64,000 bases of DNA from the NCBI RefSeq assembly GCF_015709455.1, contig NZ_JADNQW010000003.1:62001-126000 (forward strand), in the 5' to 3' direction. Below the pieces are notes generated by a model. The model had not been told where the DNA came from, ran no database searches, and was given only the letters and a program-made list of their open reading frames with translations. This document shows, piece after piece, positions 23,806 to 30,496 of the stretch (position 1 is its first letter; each line of letters opens with the position of its first letter). This stretch comes from Methylosinus sp. H3A (lineage in GTDB: Bacteria > Pseudomonadota > Alphaproteobacteria > Rhizobiales > Beijerinckiaceae). The position numbers and the translations under genes were made by a program.

Positions 23806-24534
23806 ATGAACAACAACATGAAGAGCAATGGACGCGCGTCCGCGCGTCGCGATCATTACCAAGACGTCACGGACCGCATCGTCGCTGCTCTCGAAGCGGG
23901 CACGGCTCCCTGGCGCAGGCCCTGGGATCCCGAAAAATCGGGCGGCCCGCTCTCGCCGATCAACGCCGTCACGGGGCGCCGCTATCACGGGATCAACGTT
24001 CTTCTGCTCGGCATGTCGCAATTTTCATTCGCGAGCGGCGATCCCCGCTATTGCAGCTACAAGCAAGCGAAGGCCAGGGGCTGGCAGGTGCGCGCTGGCG
24101 AAAAGGGCACGACCGTCTTCTTCTATAAGCAGCTTCGCGTCGAGGATCGCGACGCTCCCGCCGATGGCGAGGAGCACACGCGCAATATCCCTCTGCTTCG
24201 CGCCTACACGGTTTTCAACGGCTCGCAGATCGACGGTATCCCCGAATTCGTGGTCCCGACGATCGAGGAAGCGCCGTGGCGCCGGTTCGACGCGGCGGAC
24301 ATCATCCTGCGCAATAGCGGCGCCGTCGTTCGCATTGGCGGCGACCAAGCGTTCTATAGTCCGTCGACCGACCACATTCAGCTACCGCCGGAACGCGCAT
24401 TCCGATCTCCAGAGGCATACGCAGCTGTGCAAATGCACGAGCTTTGCCACTATTCTGGCGCGCCGAGTCGGCTGAACCGTGATCTCACAGGACGCTTCGG
24501 TTCGGCGAAATACGCTTTCGAAGAACTTGTCGCG
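23806..24534 (+). pseudogene. ardC: ardC antirestriction gene, 5' part, split by the three-recombinase element
   Basis: The 243 codons before the insertion encode the ArdC N-terminal ssDNA-binding domain (DRIVAALEAGTAPWRRPWD, YHGINVLLLG, YKQAKARGWQVRAGEKGT) and the start of the metalloprotease-like domain with MHELCHYSGA, the HExxH-type site, near residue 210. It stops being ArdC after YAFEELVA. ArdC protects incoming plasmid DNA from type I restriction. The rest of the gene is at 30248-30496. Joining the two parts through one GTCGCG copy restores a frame of 325 residues, the usual ArdC length. CGGAGA supports the ATG. As it stands the gene would give a 244-residue truncated protein that keeps the HELCH site. 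Confidence 0.92.
24529..24534. repeat. GTCGCG direct repeat, left flank of the three-recombinase element
   Basis: These six bases are repeated exactly at 30242-30247 and directly abut the left terminal inverted repeat. They are either a target duplication or the recombination core. Confidence 0.8.
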
Positions 24535-24737
24535 TTATCTTGACAGTCTGCACCGACTCAATTGCCCTCAGTAGGGTCGTCGAGGCAGTCCATAGGAGGT
24601 GCCCGCAGAGCCGGCGCCGGGCGATTATCGTAAGGACATATCGTTCGGGCTGTTGGACCGTTGGGAGCGCCTGTGGGCTTCGCCTAGTCAACCCCGTGTC
24701 ATCGCAATCACCAAGGGCGTCGGGAGGGCTGGTTGTT

Positions 24738-26147
24738 GTGGATAATGGGAAAATTGGTGCGAGGAGCATCACGCTTCAAGAACAGCGTGCAATCGGCGGT
24801 CTCGATCATCAGGTGCCGATGATCCTTCTCGATGGAAGGACATACGATGACAACTTGGATCGCTTTCTTCTCGATCTGCCACTGAATGGCGTGAGATCTC
24901 GGCACTCTCTACGTGCCTACGGCTACGACCTCATGATCTGGGTTCGCTTTCTCGAGCAAGCTTGCGGCAAGAGCGTCTGGGAGGCCGTACATAGTGACAT
25001 CGCTGCATTTCATCGAGCGCGCCGTCGCGGGGACGCTGGGGCTCGCATTTCCGCGGCATCATGGAATCGATCCGTCGCCGCGCTCGACAAGCTTTATCGT
25101 TGGGCCGTAGTCGAAGGGATCGTCGCATCCAGCCCATTCATGCATAGAGATGAGTGGCGTCGAGGTCAGGGCCCTCGACGAGTCCGCGTTATCGCGCGGA
25201 ATGAAGCTTACGAGCGCGCCGCGAAGCGGATGGATGTGCGCTTCATTTCACTCGAGGACTACCGCGTTTTCCGGGACGTTGGTCTGCGTGGTCTGACGGC
25301 CGCGGGCGCGGAACGTCCCGGCGCACGGGACCGCAATAGCACGCGTAACGCGCTTTTCGCCGAACTCTTGCTAACCACGGGAATGCGACTTGAGGAAGCA
25401 TCGTTTCTTCTCGCCGCCGAGATTTCAGACTCAGCGCAAGCCACGCGCGGCGGCCAGGGCTGGTTCGAACTGCCGCCTGCGCTCACCAAGGGTGATCGCG
25501 GTCGACGTATATTGATGCCGGGACGTGTGCTTCATGAAATCTCTGCCTATATCGACATCGAGCGAGCGCACGCCATCAGCAAGTTCCGATCCAGGCAAGG
25601 GTGGGAGACGATCGAACGGCCGATCTTCGTTCACCGGCGAGCGTCGGGTGCAGCCTCCATTCCGATCCGGAACGGCGGCGCGATTCCGATAGAAGCGTTG
25701 ACACCGGACGAGCGTGGTCGGCTAGTTATCTGTGACGATGAAGGCGTGCCGCTGGAGCCGGCCGTACTCTGGTTGACCGAGGTCGGACAGCCGGTCCAAC
25801 CGAATACATGGGAAGCAACTTTCACTCGCGCGTGTCGGCGTTGCTCGGCGGCCGGTTTTCCGATGCAGGTCAGTCCTCATCGGCTCCGTCACGCGTTTGC
25901 CGTCCACATGCTCGCGATGCTGATTCAAAACCGCTTGCGTGATGCGTCGGTCGCAGCCGGAGACGCCGGGACGGAGGCCTATCATCGGATGCTCGGGGAT
26001 CCCTTGCAACAGGTCCAACGTCTTCTCGGTCATGCCAGCCTGACGACAACTTATATCTACCTCGATCACGTCGCCGGCCACGCCGACACAGTCGATGCCG
26101 CGATGGAGGAGCTTTTGGCTCTGGTTCCAAAGGTTGGTAATTCATGA
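24738..26147 (+). CDS. Tyrosine recombinase 1 of the trio, complete catalytic set
   Basis: The protein of about 469 residues has an N-terminal core-binding domain (NGVRSRHSLRAYGYDLMIWV, AALDKLYRWAV) and a C-terminal catalytic domain. The catalytic residues are visible: Arg in LLTTGMRLEEASF, His and Arg in SPHRLRHAFAVHML, His in LLGHASLTTT and the nucleophile Tyr in TYIYLDH. It should cut and rejoin DNA at the element ends through a 3'-phosphotyrosyl link. GTG at 24738 is preferred because GGGAGG lies ten bases upstream; a longer frame reaches back to the element border and is unlikely. Its stop overlaps the next ATG, so all three genes are translationally coupled. Confidence 0.9.
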   Translation: MDNGKIGARSITLQEQRAIGGLDHQVPMILLDGRTYDDNLDRFLLDLPLNGVRSRHSLRAYGYDLMIWVRFLEQACGKSVWEAVHSDIAAFHRARRRGDAGARISAASWNRSVAALDKLYRWAVVEGIVASSPFMHRDEWRRGQGPRRVRVIARNEAYERAAKRMDVRFISLEDYRVFRDVGLRGLTAAGAERPGARDRNSTRNALFAELLLTTGMRLEEASFLLAAEISDSAQATRGGQGWFELPPALTKGDRGRRILMPGRVLHEISAYIDIERAHAISKFRSRQGWETIERPIFVHRRASGAASIPIRNGGAIPIEALTPDERGRLVICDDEGVPLEPAVLWLTEVGQPVQPNTWEATFTRACRRCSAAGFPMQVSPHRLRHAFAVHMLAMLIQNRLRDASVAAGDAGTEAYHRMLGDPLQQVQRLLGHASLTTTYIYLDHVAGHADTVDAAMEELLALVPKVGNS

Positions 26148-27943
26148 CGGGACGTCCTCGCAAAGGTCGTCGGGTCGCGTTTCAGCGCGAAGACGGCCTC
26201 CCAGGTCCGCAGGATATCGATCCGATCTCCGGGCTGCGCTTCACAATCGGTGCCCAGCACGGCGGCGAGGCGTTGGTCGACTTCACTGGTTTGAGACCCC
26301 GACGGCTCGCGCTCGCTTTTGCACGCGCGCTTCGTCATCTGGCTGCTCCCGGTGGCCCGCTTGGCGTCCGCGCGACCGTGAAGGCTTATGCAGTCGCGCT
26401 ACCGAGGTTCTTCGACTATTTGCGGGAGTCGGGCGGTTCCGTCGATGGACCCGAAGATCTCCAAGGGCAGAACGTCGACGGCTTTGAGACATGGCTCGAA
26501 GTCCATGGCTATTCGCGCACGCATCTGTTCACCGTGCTAGTGAAGGTTGTTGCCGTGCTACGGCAGATCGCCATCGACTCACCGGAGGGCGTCTCGCCGG
26601 ACCTTCGCGACCGCCTCCGCTATGCCAGCGCTCGGCCTTTTCAGCGATCGAGGCCTCGAGATGCTTACAGCCCTTTTGTGGCGCGCCAACTGCGTGACGC
26701 TGCGCGGGGCGACGTTGCCGCCGTAATCCGTCGGATGCAACAGAACCGGTCGTCTGAATCCGACGCTGTTCTTCTACCGCTCGAGTCTGCCGCTCATGCG
26801 CTCATCGAGGAGCGAGGCCTCATCCGCAGCGACGACACGGTATTCGAACATCTCTACAGCGCTCGCCGCCGCTGCGGGCGATCGAATAAAGGTCTCGGCG
26901 ACGAGCTCAACGGCCGCCATCACCTCAGTCGTGACGACGTGATTCCATTTCTTGTGCTCCTAGCCTTGGAGACAGGGCTGGAGATCGAATGCTGCAAGGC
27001 GCTGAATGGCGATTGCCTTCAAAATGCATCGGGCGGCACGGTGGAAATCGCCTACTTTAAACGCCGCGCACGGGGCAGTGAGCACAAACGGCTCAGGGTT
27101 CGCGACGGAGCCTTGATGACTCCTGGAGGCCTGATCCGAAAATTGTTAGAGCTGACGGCGTCGGCGCGTCGCCACCATCCGAGCAACTGCATATGGGTGT
27201 ACCGCAGCGCCGGCGCGTTCACGGCTGGTATTCGGCATCCACGTATGCTTGTCGATGCTTGGACGCGGCGGCATGGCATTGTCGACGACGACGGGCGTCC
27301 GCTGCAGCTTCTCCTCTCCCGACTCCGCAAGACCCATAAGGCACTGTGGTATCTTAAGACCGAAGGCCACATGGCCCGCTTTGCGGTCGGTCACACCCCC
27401 GAGGTTGCCGCCAGACATTACGCCGATGTGCCGGCGCTCCGGCCGCTTCATCAAGCAACCGTTGCCGAGGCTTTGCAGGATGCCGTGTCGTCAGCTTTCG
27501 CGCCACTCGTCCTGACACCCGAACAGGAAGAGGTCTGGCGAGGACATCCGGCAACCATAGCGAACGTATCCTCCGGTAGCGATCCGGACGCGCCGCTCGT
27601 TGAAGAGCAGGACGTCTGGTTGGCTAGTTGTGGCGGGTTCTATGCCGGCGTTCATGGCGAAGCCGGCGCTCCCTGTCCAGTCCCATTTTGGGGGTGCCTG
27701 GAGTGCTCGTGCGCGGTGATCACCGCGCGAAAACTCCCTGCTATCCTTTCGTTTCTGGCTTTCATCGAAGATCGGCGCCAGGCGCTTCCCGCTGACGATT
27801 GGAGAACAAAGTTCGGACGTGCTCACGCGCGGATCGTCAATCAGATTCTTCCTTCGTTCAGCGATACGGTCATCGAAAATGCCCGCGAGTCGCAGGCTAC
27901 GGACGAGAGTCCGATCTATCTGCCGCCGGAGGCTCTCCAATGA
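26144..27943 (+). CDS. Tyrosine-recombinase-like protein 2 of the trio, partly non-canonical active site
   Basis: The 599-residue protein has an N-terminal helical part (VKAYAVALPRFFDYLRES) and a C-terminal recombinase-like domain. Box II appears as LSRLRKTHKALWYL with Arg but Ser where His is usual. FAVGHTPEVAARHYADV supplies the GH and Tyr pair. At box I the text is LALETGLEIECCKAL, where the normal TGLR Arg is not seen. If this alignment is right, the protein may be catalytically weak and act as a structural partner of recombinase 1. Near the C-terminus CGGFYAGVHGEAGAPC and FWGCLECSCA give a Cys cluster that may bind zinc. Starts and stops overlap both neighbours as ATGA. It was probably acquired as a unit with them. 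Confidence 0.8.
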   Translation: MTGRPRKGRRVAFQREDGLPGPQDIDPISGLRFTIGAQHGGEALVDFTGLRPRRLALAFARALRHLAAPGGPLGVRATVKAYAVALPRFFDYLRESGGSVDGPEDLQGQNVDGFETWLEVHGYSRTHLFTVLVKVVAVLRQIAIDSPEGVSPDLRDRLRYASARPFQRSRPRDAYSPFVARQLRDAARGDVAAVIRRMQQNRSSESDAVLLPLESAAHALIEERGLIRSDDTVFEHLYSARRRCGRSNKGLGDELNGRHHLSRDDVIPFLVLLALETGLEIECCKALNGDCLQNASGGTVEIAYFKRRARGSEHKRLRVRDGALMTPGGLIRKLLELTASARRHHPSNCIWVYRSAGAFTAGIRHPRMLVDAWTRRHGIVDDDGRPLQLLLSRLRKTHKALWYLKTEGHMARFAVGHTPEVAARHYADVPALRPLHQATVAEALQDAVSSAFAPLVLTPEQEEVWRGHPATIANVSSGSDPDAPLVEEQDVWLASCGGFYAGVHGEAGAPCPVPFWGCLECSCAVITARKLPAILSFLAFIEDRRQALPADDWRTKFGRAHARIVNQILPSFSDTVIENARESQATDESPIYLPPEALQ

Positions 27944-30102
27944 ACTCAGCGGTCTCGCCTTCGCGGCTGGCGACGTCTGTTCCAGATGATAGGCCCGTGC
28001 TGACAAGCTTGCCTCTTCGGCCCGGGTTCGTCCGGGAGCACCTCTCTCGCTATTGTGATGCGAGCTGGGATCTCAGTCCCGCTGTGTTCCGGGAGAATGC
28101 CCGACGATGCCATGTGACGGTACATTTCGACAGTGTATCGAATGCGGCGGTCGCACAAGCTCTTCGTGAGTATCTGTATGCGCGGTTGAACGTTGATTTG
28201 CCCGGCTATCGCCCACGTTTGCCTCCTGCCAGTGTCCGGCAAGGATTCAACCGGGCTCGCCGCTTCTTTGAGTTCGTCCATGCCGAGTTGGGCGTTTGCG
28301 ACGTCACTCGCGTTACCCAGGGTTGTCTCGACCGCTATGCGAAGTTACTCCTCGACGGTCATCGACGGCCCGTTGTCGCCGCTCAGCTTCTCGAAATAAT
28401 CTTCGATCTCTATGCGTACCGAGCTCATCTTCCGATCATTCGCCTCCGACTGGAGCCATGGCCCGGCCGGACACCGTCCCAGGTAGCCGGATATCGTTTT
28501 ACCCGCGGAGAGAACCGCACGCCTCGCATGCCTGAAGAGATAATCGCACCGTTGCTCAAGTGGTCGCTGAAGTACGTTTCCGTGTTTGCCTCCGATATTT
28601 TTGCGGCCCGCGTTGAACTCACCCAGCTCGAGCGACGGCAGTCTGGGTTGATTGCGGACGATTTGCGGCTCACGCTGGACGAACGTCGTTCACGTCGGCG
28701 TGCCCGACTCTCGGCCTATCTCGAGGAGCGCCGACTCCAAGGGCGCGGCGTGCCGATCTGGACGACCGCGCATAACGGGGTTTGGCGCACGGATGCCGTG
28801 AACGGCGAACTGACGCCCCCAATCAACTGGTTGTTACTCCATCAGCTGGCGGGCGTAGATGCATGTGCTGATCCGAAGGCGCACCTATCTCTCATGTCCG
28901 GCGCGCGCGACCTTGTCGCTGCCGCGATCAAAGCGACAGGTGTCGAGATCGGCGGCATGCACACTCCCATTTCCATTGACCCAGACACGGGTCGGTCATG
29001 GCGGCCGCGCTTCGATTCCAAGACGCTGGTTCACGAAGAACGCATGCTCCAGGCCGCTTGTTATGTCGTCTGTGCCTACCTCACTGGCATGCGCGACTGC
29101 GAAGTCCAAGCGATGCGATCCGGTTGCCTGTCGGTGAGCCGCAGCGCGGACGGTATTATCGACCGTCATCGCGTGCGGGCCGTCGTTTATAAAGGAAAGC
29201 AAACTCAGGGCGAACCTGCAGAGTGGGTGACAATTGCACCGGTCGCCGAAGCAATTCGTGTTCTCGAGCTGCTCTCGGCGGATGGGGCGGCGGTTCGAGG
29301 CTCGGATACCCTTTGGCCTGTGCTTGATCCCGTGCGCGCCCGTAAGGTTCACGTGTCCGCAGAGATTGTGCGTCAGCTCAATGACTACCGCAATCATCTG
29401 AACATTTTGTTCGGAACCGAAGACAGGCCCGTCGTCCCGCCTGGTTCTAGCGGCCGACCCTGGCGAATTACGACCCGTCAGTTTCGGCGTACGATTGCTT
29501 GGTATATCGCCAATCGGCCATTCGGCACGATCGCGGGGATGATCCAGTATAAGCACGCCTCGGTCGCCGCCTTCGAGGGGTATGCGGGTTCAAGCCGTTC
29601 CGGTTTCCGGGCCGAAGTCGAAGCAGAACGGAAGCTCGGGCAGCTCGACGACATTTTCAGATATTTTGATGAACGGCGGACAGGGGCACAGCTGTCTGGA
29701 CCGGCGTCGGCCCGGATCGGATTGGCTCTCGATACTGCCAATGCCGAAGTCGGACCGCTGCCCGCGATGATAGCCGATCGCAACCGGTTGCGTACATTGC
29801 TGGCAAGTCTAGCTCGCACACTTCACGTCGGCATTCTCGCAGATTGCTTCTTCGATCCGTCAACGGCGCTTTGCTTGAAGAACGCGACCGAGACTCCTCA
29901 ATCAGCTCCGCTCACTGCGCTCTGCCAGCCTACGCGCTGCTCAAACGCATGCATTACCAAAAACCACCGAGCCGCATGGGAAAGCGCAGCGAGTGACGCC
30001 AGGAATCTTCTTCGTGAGAAGCGGCTGTCGGACTTGCAGCGGATCGCGTTGCGTCAGGATCTTGACCGGATTCAGGCCGTTCTCGACGATTTGAACCCCT
30101 GA
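27940..30102 (+). CDS. Tyrosine-recombinase-like protein 3 of the trio
   Basis: The 720-residue protein carries box I as AYLTGMRDCEVQAMR and a box II-like TTRQFRRTIAWYIANRP with Arg but no His. The third block is MIQYKHASVAAFEGYAG, with His and a likely Tyr. A long N-terminal region (FNRARRFFEFVHAELGVCDV) resembles a core-binding domain. The C-terminal 120 residues include DCFFDPSTALC and LCQPTRCSNACI, a Cys-rich segment that may bind zinc. The ATG overlaps the stop of recombinase 2. Among integrase trios the third member is usually the most divergent. The protein ends 139 bp before the right inverted repeat, and that gap holds no gene. Confidence 0.8.
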   Translation: MNSAVSPSRLATSVPDDRPVLTSLPLRPGFVREHLSRYCDASWDLSPAVFRENARRCHVTVHFDSVSNAAVAQALREYLYARLNVDLPGYRPRLPPASVRQGFNRARRFFEFVHAELGVCDVTRVTQGCLDRYAKLLLDGHRRPVVAAQLLEIIFDLYAYRAHLPIIRLRLEPWPGRTPSQVAGYRFTRGENRTPRMPEEIIAPLLKWSLKYVSVFASDIFAARVELTQLERRQSGLIADDLRLTLDERRSRRRARLSAYLEERRLQGRGVPIWTTAHNGVWRTDAVNGELTPPINWLLLHQLAGVDACADPKAHLSLMSGARDLVAAAIKATGVEIGGMHTPISIDPDTGRSWRPRFDSKTLVHEERMLQAACYVVCAYLTGMRDCEVQAMRSGCLSVSRSADGIIDRHRVRAVVYKGKQTQGEPAEWVTIAPVAEAIRVLELLSADGAAVRGSDTLWPVLDPVRARKVHVSAEIVRQLNDYRNHLNILFGTEDRPVVPPGSSGRPWRITTRQFRRTIAWYIANRPFGTIAGMIQYKHASVAAFEGYAGSSRSGFRAEVEAERKLGQLDDIFRYFDERRTGAQLSGPASARIGLALDTANAEVGPLPAMIADRNRLRTLLASLARTLHVGILADCFFDPSTALCLKNATETPQSAPLTALCQPTRCSNACITKNHRAAWESAASDARNLLREKRLSDLQRIALRQDLDRIQAVLDDLNP

Positions 30103-30227
30103 CAACGATAGCCAGGTGTTCTTCCGCCGCCTGCAGCTTCGCAAAATTATCGTTCGAGACAATTCTCTCTTCAACGGCAATGACAAAATTTGACGAGATC
30201 GAGCCATTGCCGTCACGGGCGGAACTT

Positions 30228-30247
30228 GACTGTCAGGATAAGTCGCG
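30228..30247. repeat. Right inverted repeat of the three-recombinase element plus GTCGCG flank
   Basis: GACTGTCAGGATAA (30228-30241) is the inverted counterpart of the left end at 24535-24548 with one mismatch. It is followed directly by GTCGCG (30242-30247), the second copy of the flanking direct repeat. Confidence 0.85.
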
Positions 30248-30496
30248 GACATAGCGAGCTGTCTCGTCAACACCGAACTCGGATTGCCGACAGACATAGA
30301 GAACCACGCGAGCTATGTGGCATTTTGGCTCCAGCGACTCGAGACGGACAAGCGCGAGATATTTCGCGCGGCGGCGGCGGCGCAGAAGGCGGCCGACTAT
30401 TGTCTGGCCTTTCATCCCGATTTTGCCGAAAGCGAATTCGGCTCGGATGAAGAGGAGTCCGCCGGCGATAACTCCAGCCTTAATCGCGCGGCGTGA
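30248..30496 (+). pseudogene. ardC: ardC antirestriction gene, 3' part
   Basis: The frame reads DIASCLVNTELGLPTDIENH, then ASYVAFWLQRLETDKREIF and AAAAAQKAADYCLAF, which is the C-terminal helical end of ArdC proteins. It continues the frame broken at 24534 without gap or overlap once the element is removed. There is no start codon of its own at a plausible place apart from an internal ATG-less stretch. The last four bases overlap the region where the next gene starts, so the PAPS-reductase-like gene was coupled to ardC before the insertion. Confidence 0.9.

Follow-up and report, generated by a model that had tools for sequence, protein, structure and literature searches.

In the 64,000-nucleotide stretch of Methylosinus sp. 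H3A analysed here (the window), an element of 5,707 bp at positions 24535-30241 interrupts an ardC gene. The features of the locus are as follows.

23806-24534, + strand: 5' part of ardC, encoding the N-terminal domain and HExxH and reaching EELVA; its frame closes with LS-stop within the element (stop at 24541-24543)
24529-24534, + strand: left six bases GTCGCG, the Val-Ala codons of EELVA; read, by analogy with relatives, as the target's own
24535-24548, + strand: left terminal inverted repeat, TTATCTTGACAGTC
24549-24737, + strand: leader ahead of gene A, a long covarying hairpin in relatives and imperfect in the window
24738-26147, + strand: gene A, tyrosine recombinase, 469 residues from a likely GTG start; the frame is open from 24540
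26144-27943, + strand: gene B, 599 residues, recombinase-like fold, Glu in place of the box I Arg
27940-30102, + strand: gene C, 720 residues, recombinase-like fold, box II His replaced
30228-30241, + strand: right terminal inverted repeat, GACTGTCAGGATAA
30242-30247, + strand: right six bases GTCGCG; read, again by analogy with relatives, as brought by the element
30248-30496, + strand: 3' part of ardC

The ends of the element form a 14-bp inverted repeat with one mismatch, and the six bases GTCGCG stand on both flanks. On a rough estimate, ends paired like this would arise by chance at a given position with a probability of about 1.6e-7, to be multiplied by 2.4e-4 for the six-base repeat. 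The matched ends, GTCGCG flanks and precise bounds proposed in a first-pass annotation of this DNA are thus borne out, the interval 24529-30247 given there being the element plus its six-base flanks. When position 24534 is joined to 30248, the frame is open through an ArdC of 325 residues, as had also been proposed, and the target protein is recognisable as ArdC by its ArdcN and zincin domains. An uninterrupted ArdC, at 80-93% protein identity, is present in five of nine same-genus genomes, which provides the empty gene that was to be sought in related strains; the remaining four comprise two with distant homologues alone (42-44%) and two with none. The joined DNA aligns without gaps to the uninterrupted gene of congeners, over 949 bp at 93.2% (L096), over 931 bp at 92.5% (L097) and, in three further congeners, at 79-81%. 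Uninterrupted homologues that fail to match the joined sequence, which the first-pass annotation had named as evidence against its reading, were not seen in these five congeners. The reversible switching of ardC suggested in that annotation is hypothetical: no excision was seen here, and among known elements SEs (strand-biased circularizing integrative elements) are described as leaving no empty site (PMC10214605), and for GInts a restored site is reported in some strains and its absence in others (PMC5385486).

In the window's genome the element is single-copy and the single ArdcN match is the interrupted gene. Since the window's copy carries no spare ArdC of the kind described below, its genome keeps only a truncated ArdC. 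It is uncertain that truncation abolishes ArdC function, since the truncated product retains the N-terminal domain and since conjugation into P. putida is reported to be still normal with the E229A mutant of R388 ArdC (PMC7213743). The Leu-Ser-stop that closes the broken ardC comes from the left end itself (24535-24543); exactly this ending is seen in 24 of 59 left fragments, and the rest, bar one, stop within 12 residues.

Genes A, B and C

The three genes overlap via ATGA at both A/B and B/C, as the first-pass annotation had it. With the boxes assigned by motif, the catalytic set of A is complete (TGMR, HRLRH, LGH and Tyr), Glu occupies the expected place of the box I Arg in all 28 aligned B proteins, and all 25 aligned C proteins keep GMR and have TTRQFRR at the expected box II His, so that the claim of a complete set in the first recombinase only is upheld. 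Invariant in B are the Tyr and C496, C511, C518 and C521; invariant in C are the Arg of box I, the His of box III, the Tyr and C636, C645, C662, C667 and C671. The Cys clusters noticed earlier in the second and third proteins thus comprise four invariant residues in B and five in C, and they may bind zinc. That two non-canonical partners steer one active recombinase, as the first-pass annotation suggested, is a hypothesis; C may cleave too, given that its box I Arg, box III His and Tyr are all retained.

Pfam and NCBIfam scans gave no family for B or C, and a PDB sequence search with A, and with profiles of B and C, gave no match. The predicted models of B and C both have a tyrosine recombinase fold, tyrosine recombinases filling the top VIA-align rows, while Foldseek returned nothing for either model at an E-value of 0.001 or better. 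Mean pLDDT is 70.5 for the C model and 75.5 for the B model; it is poor near the expected Tyr in both, and the stretches modelled with low confidence are residues 525-675 in C and, approximately, 408-432 and 486-515 in B.

Relatives and the ardC target site

Scanning one genome per species (84,980 species) with a profile of the C protein, we obtained 163 relatives and examined the best 80. A B match lies beside C in 80 of these 80 and an A match in 73 (some contigs end early). The proposed search for other trios of the same order yielded, in the best 80 of 163, 80 related trios. Within the same best 80 of 163, the left end was found in 63 cases and at least 36 bases of flank were readable in 48, and all 48 of these left junctions keep the frame and end at [E/D]E[L/I/C][V/I/L]A; right ends were likewise found in 63, and all of the 47 readable right junctions continue with xA and then E, D, G or S. 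All readable junctions in this set lie at the same codons, just past the metal-binding Glu of an ArdC-type metallopeptidase. The Pfam family MPTase-PolyVal (zincin domain) was found in all 44 left fragments scanned; in the other four of the 48 the open frame was too short for a scan. For R388 ArdC the metal ligands are described as H201, H205 and E229, with a motif (E,H)xx(A,F,T,S,G) on a 'glutamate helix' (PMC7213743); since in our alignment E229 starts E-L-I-A, the six bases are the codons of the last two residues of this motif. ArdC aids plasmid entry into restricting hosts, and the branch lands in the metal-binding motif of this protein.

At the DNA level the target reads GARGAR, followed by a triplet (CTN in most cases), six bases (usually GTCGCC or a near variant) and GAR. 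Exceptions among the plasmid records are two copies in Sinorhizobium terangae and one in Agrobacterium (flanks of L011, L012 and L132), which lie in a short frame reading IEELRA. Since the DNA of these sites outside ardC is nearly the same as that of the ardC target site, it seems to be DNA rather than a gene that the element recognises. The ardC-site branch is spread over many alphaproteobacterial genera and has a member at the ardC site of plasmid pNL1 of N. aromaticivorans. Its prevalence is low, however: a class-wide survey of 385 genomes yielded, besides the window's own genome, two borderline partial matches (E-values 6e-4 and 9e-4), and among the genomes of 120 relatives only the own genome and G024 were positive. 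In sphingomonad plasmids a reverse-transcriptase gene, of group II intron type by our reading, lies just 5' of the ardC left fragment (L007:2070-4121 and L095:2162-4063), so the same ardC may have been struck twice.

The polarity of the six-base repeats cannot be read in the window, whose two sixes are equal, but it can be read in relatives, where the sixes are equal in seven of the 37 loci having both junctions readable. In comparisons of pairs that took in the plasmid loci and the window, loci with left flanks at least 85% identical agree in the left six in 12 of 17 pairs and differ there by a single base in the remaining five, whereas loci with right flanks at least 85% identical have the same right six in 3 of 15 (Fisher p 0.006, for pairs that are not independent). 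In two of the right-flank pairs the sixes are three bases apart at flank identities of 99 and 100%. Judged from these flanks, relatives show the left six to be the target's own and the right six to be brought by the element, which is the left-native, right-carried-in polarity published for SEs (PMC10214605) and termed 'att-brought-in' for Tn554 and Tn552-II (PMC12486829). One observation does not fit a simple carried-in model. The right six encode C, R or T, rather than V, I or L, in 8 of 47 cases and the left six in 0 of 48 (p 0.003), and if right sixes came from earlier left sixes, both sets should look alike.

Copies within one strain match across the element and differ outside it, which shows recent movement. 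In Marinibacterium, 6,531 bp are 100% identical on two plasmids, and a third copy is 100% identical over the 5,469 bp compared. The copies of Sphingobium CFD-2 are 100% identical over 6,893 bp, with 99% of the left flank shared and the right flank not shared; those of S. terangae and Primorskyibacter are 99.97-99.99% identical, the right flanks in Primorskyibacter being 78% alike; and the copies of S. lactosutens, like those of Sphingobium DEHP117, are 100% identical over 5,491 bp (the comparisons over 5,469-5,491 bp concern copies without a right end found). In Marinibacterium, CFD-2 and Primorskyibacter an ArdC gene begins 108-187 bases beyond the C match, a gap too short for a gene the size of ginD, the fourth gene of GInts, so that a fourth gene is either unneeded there or supplied in trans.

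The spare ArdC

A complete ArdC gene is present between C and the right end in 63 of the 72 elements with a right end found; no spare ArdC was found in the other nine (the window, L011, L012, L016, L017, L020, L023, L031 and L089). In 61 of the 63 the insertion codons of this cargo ArdC are unlike the target (EEATAE, EECCVE, EEICAE, EEACAE, EELTAE and others), those of L013 and L014 matching it, and the two Glu are retained in all 63, the search pattern having required two acidic residues there. Among ArdC genes outside elements, 23 of 25 read EEL(V/I)A and two EE(I/L)TA; these 25 were kept after six of 31 rows had been moved or dropped, and they are a narrow sample, mostly from relatives of this genome and chosen by likeness to the window's ArdC.

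In a tree computed with the site masked, all 23 distinct cargo ArdCs fall in one clade (98/98; 97% of 200 bootstrap trees). This clade takes in even the ArdC of L094, with a C protein at just 44% identity, which suggests that the cargo ArdC is an ancient component that the element has inherited. Counting the 61 altered sites of 63 as many independent events was rejected on account of this single clade, and the corresponding Fisher value of 9.7e-17 overstates the case. Cargo sites may occasionally be entered, since certain right sixes (TGCGCC, ACCGCC) are the same as cargo-type sites.

The spare gene could quite plausibly, if somewhat short of probably, be ordinary anti-restriction cargo that aids entry of the element or its plasmid and is unrelated to rescue, its altered codons marking a separate subfamily. 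The single clade means that the altered codons may have one origin, yet they still vary inside the clade and equal the target in just the two cases named. Nine of the 72 elements manage without a spare and two of the 25 outside ArdCs deviate at the site too (EEITAE and EELTAE), as ordinary cargo would allow, and R388 ArdC is reported to be needed in the recipient (PMC7213743); against this, cargo and target belong to the same family, and both Glu, in positions where the pattern demanded acidic residues, are kept throughout.

Tentatively, and with rather more doubt than confidence, one may also consider a natural insert-and-rescue element that would spread by inserting at codons of a catalytic motif common to most plasmid ArdC proteins, and whose own ArdC lineage, changed at precisely those codons, would replace the broken gene and would be poorly re-entered. 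In most members examined the spare ArdC is altered at the spacer, and it may both take over from the interrupted target and be protected against renewed insertion. The copy in the window is a minimal form that lacks this spare gene. If true, insert-and-rescue would work in the manner of a recoded-rescue gene drive that arose in bacteria and operates on plasmids. The altered spare ArdC raises a testable question, namely whether carried copies of the target bring about both rescue of the host gene and immunity to re-insertion.

Relation to known elements

In profile comparisons, C matches gene 3 of a quartet on a P. aeruginosa plasmid (L134) at an E-value of 1.8e-15 and B matches gene 2 of that quartet at 5.5e-17, both over most of their length, and C has no match to gene 2. 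We take this quartet as GInt-type from its gene order, and homologues in ginABC order are thereby recognised through B and C. GInts are also alike in having three recombinase-like genes as an operon with short overlaps and in entering site-specifically, with six-nucleotide staggered cuts (PMC5385486). Unlike GInts, however, the window's copy has no fourth gene corresponding to ginD, with 139 bases from C to the right end, and none of their 2.5-70 kb of cargo DNA; it has clear 14-bp inverted ends, and its target is ardC instead of ssb or an ABC transporter gene. GinD is described as essential in GInts (PMC5385486), and this need counts against a reading of the Tn554/SE/GInt kind, as the window and the moved copies lack such a gene. 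GInt homologues in Alphaproteobacteria are listed in that paper, and according to PMC10214605 no ginC-ginD blocks were found in this class.

SEs are described as having a small recombinase, a partner whose catalytic set is incomplete and a large recombinase, inverted ends of 13-19 bp and the same polarity of the left and right six (PMC10214605). They differ in having srap, which the window's copy, being without a fourth gene, does not have, and in being reported in that source only from Gammaproteobacteria. Against a V. anguillarum quartet that we take as SE-type, C aligned over 218 columns (E-value 3.5e-10) and B over 74 columns at 17% probability. Tn554 and Tn552-II are likewise site-specific and bring in attachment bases (PMC12486829, PMC3414803), but their descriptions set them apart, with tnpABC rather than an A/B/C trio and with another target. 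Tn552-II, which entered a plasmid gene, carries a 'target-gene-like' gene, tgl, for which its authors suggest possible target rescue; its site is 7 bp, and its tgl keeps the att copy, whereas the cargo ArdC is mostly altered at the site (PMC12486829). An element of pNL1 was given as Tn554-like in 2012, with a short and a long recombinase and TnpC (PMC3414803, Table 2). The plasmid is that of our branch member, with which the listed element may or may not coincide, and the table entry names no ardC target.

As published, GInts, SEs, Tn554-like pairs, RITs (recombinase-in-trio elements) and Tn552-II thus cover each idea in part: the trio or quartet, the carried-in bases and the possible rescue copy. 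No description of an ardC-targeting trio was found in the literature searched, most subscription papers lying outside its coverage. As far as that literature goes, what is new is an alphaproteobacterial branch that targets the ArdC metal-binding motif, with a spare ArdC whose version of the site is in most cases changed. The suggestion that this is a separate group of mobile element consequently stands for the ardC-targeting branch and not for its kind, which is known and has parallels in GInts, SEs and Tn554.

Sequence comparison among relatives establishes fixed ends, a fixed DNA target at the ArdC motif, the six-base polarity and recent movement in relatives without room for a fourth gene. 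We consider it very probable that the element belongs, in an ardC-targeting branch, to the site-specific transposable elements of the Tn554/SE/GInt kind. A, B and C would together form a recombination complex, and strand exchange at the six-base spacer would join the ends into a circle, the junction of which would consist of a 14-bp arm, a 6-bp spacer and a 14-bp arm, the spacer being the six bases that flank the donor copy on its left. This circle would then enter the spacer of a new ardC and deposit its own six bases at the right. The six-base polarity and such a dif-like circle junction would tie Tn554, SEs and GInts to one scheme, and the shared ArdC landing site would let one element ride unrelated plasmids, in some copies with metal-resistance cargo.

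It is unlikely that a larger integrative element decayed to leave the window's copy as a dead remnant: although this copy has neither cargo nor a fourth gene and its leader hairpin is degenerate compared with relatives, it has three open frames, two intact ends and equal sixes, and proteins 96-97% identical to C and B are found elsewhere. It is most improbable that the element is a RIT, for although RITs also have three overlapping recombinase genes, their published description sets them apart, with about 3,500 bp against 5,707 bp here (a difference from RITs in length had been claimed from the start) and no convincing direct repeats against sharp ends (PMC3414803), and with a possible catalytic motif in all three RIT families against a B that lacks the box I Arg in 28 of 28 proteins. 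In two plasmid stretches inspected for a RIT, the gene tables contained no trio.

In the distant relatives L094 and L127-L131 a small fourth gene follows C, and four such proteins have only weak HTH or DUF6262 likeness, under the Pfam cut-offs. L094 also sits in ardC. Candidate ends with 2-5 mismatches lie at sites other than this one in L126, L127 and L128, the sixes being equal in the latter two; for L129-L131 no convincing end pair was found. Mercury-resistance genes were seen between C and the candidate right end in Aminobacter L127 and beside the quartet in Mycolicibacterium L129. The cargo between C and the right end in L016, L048, L059 and L081 includes genes for cation efflux, MerB, a mercuric-reductase-like protein, a chromate transporter and parts of efflux pumps.

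Three leader-holding loci had no match in Rfam, and the window's leader (24549-24737) forms an imperfect hairpin only. In 17 aligned relatives a long hairpin before gene A is kept (e.g. L037:5706-5801), with changes on both sides in 8 of 23 pairs; this hairpin could act as an RNA switch or, as single-stranded DNA in folded form, serve in recombination.
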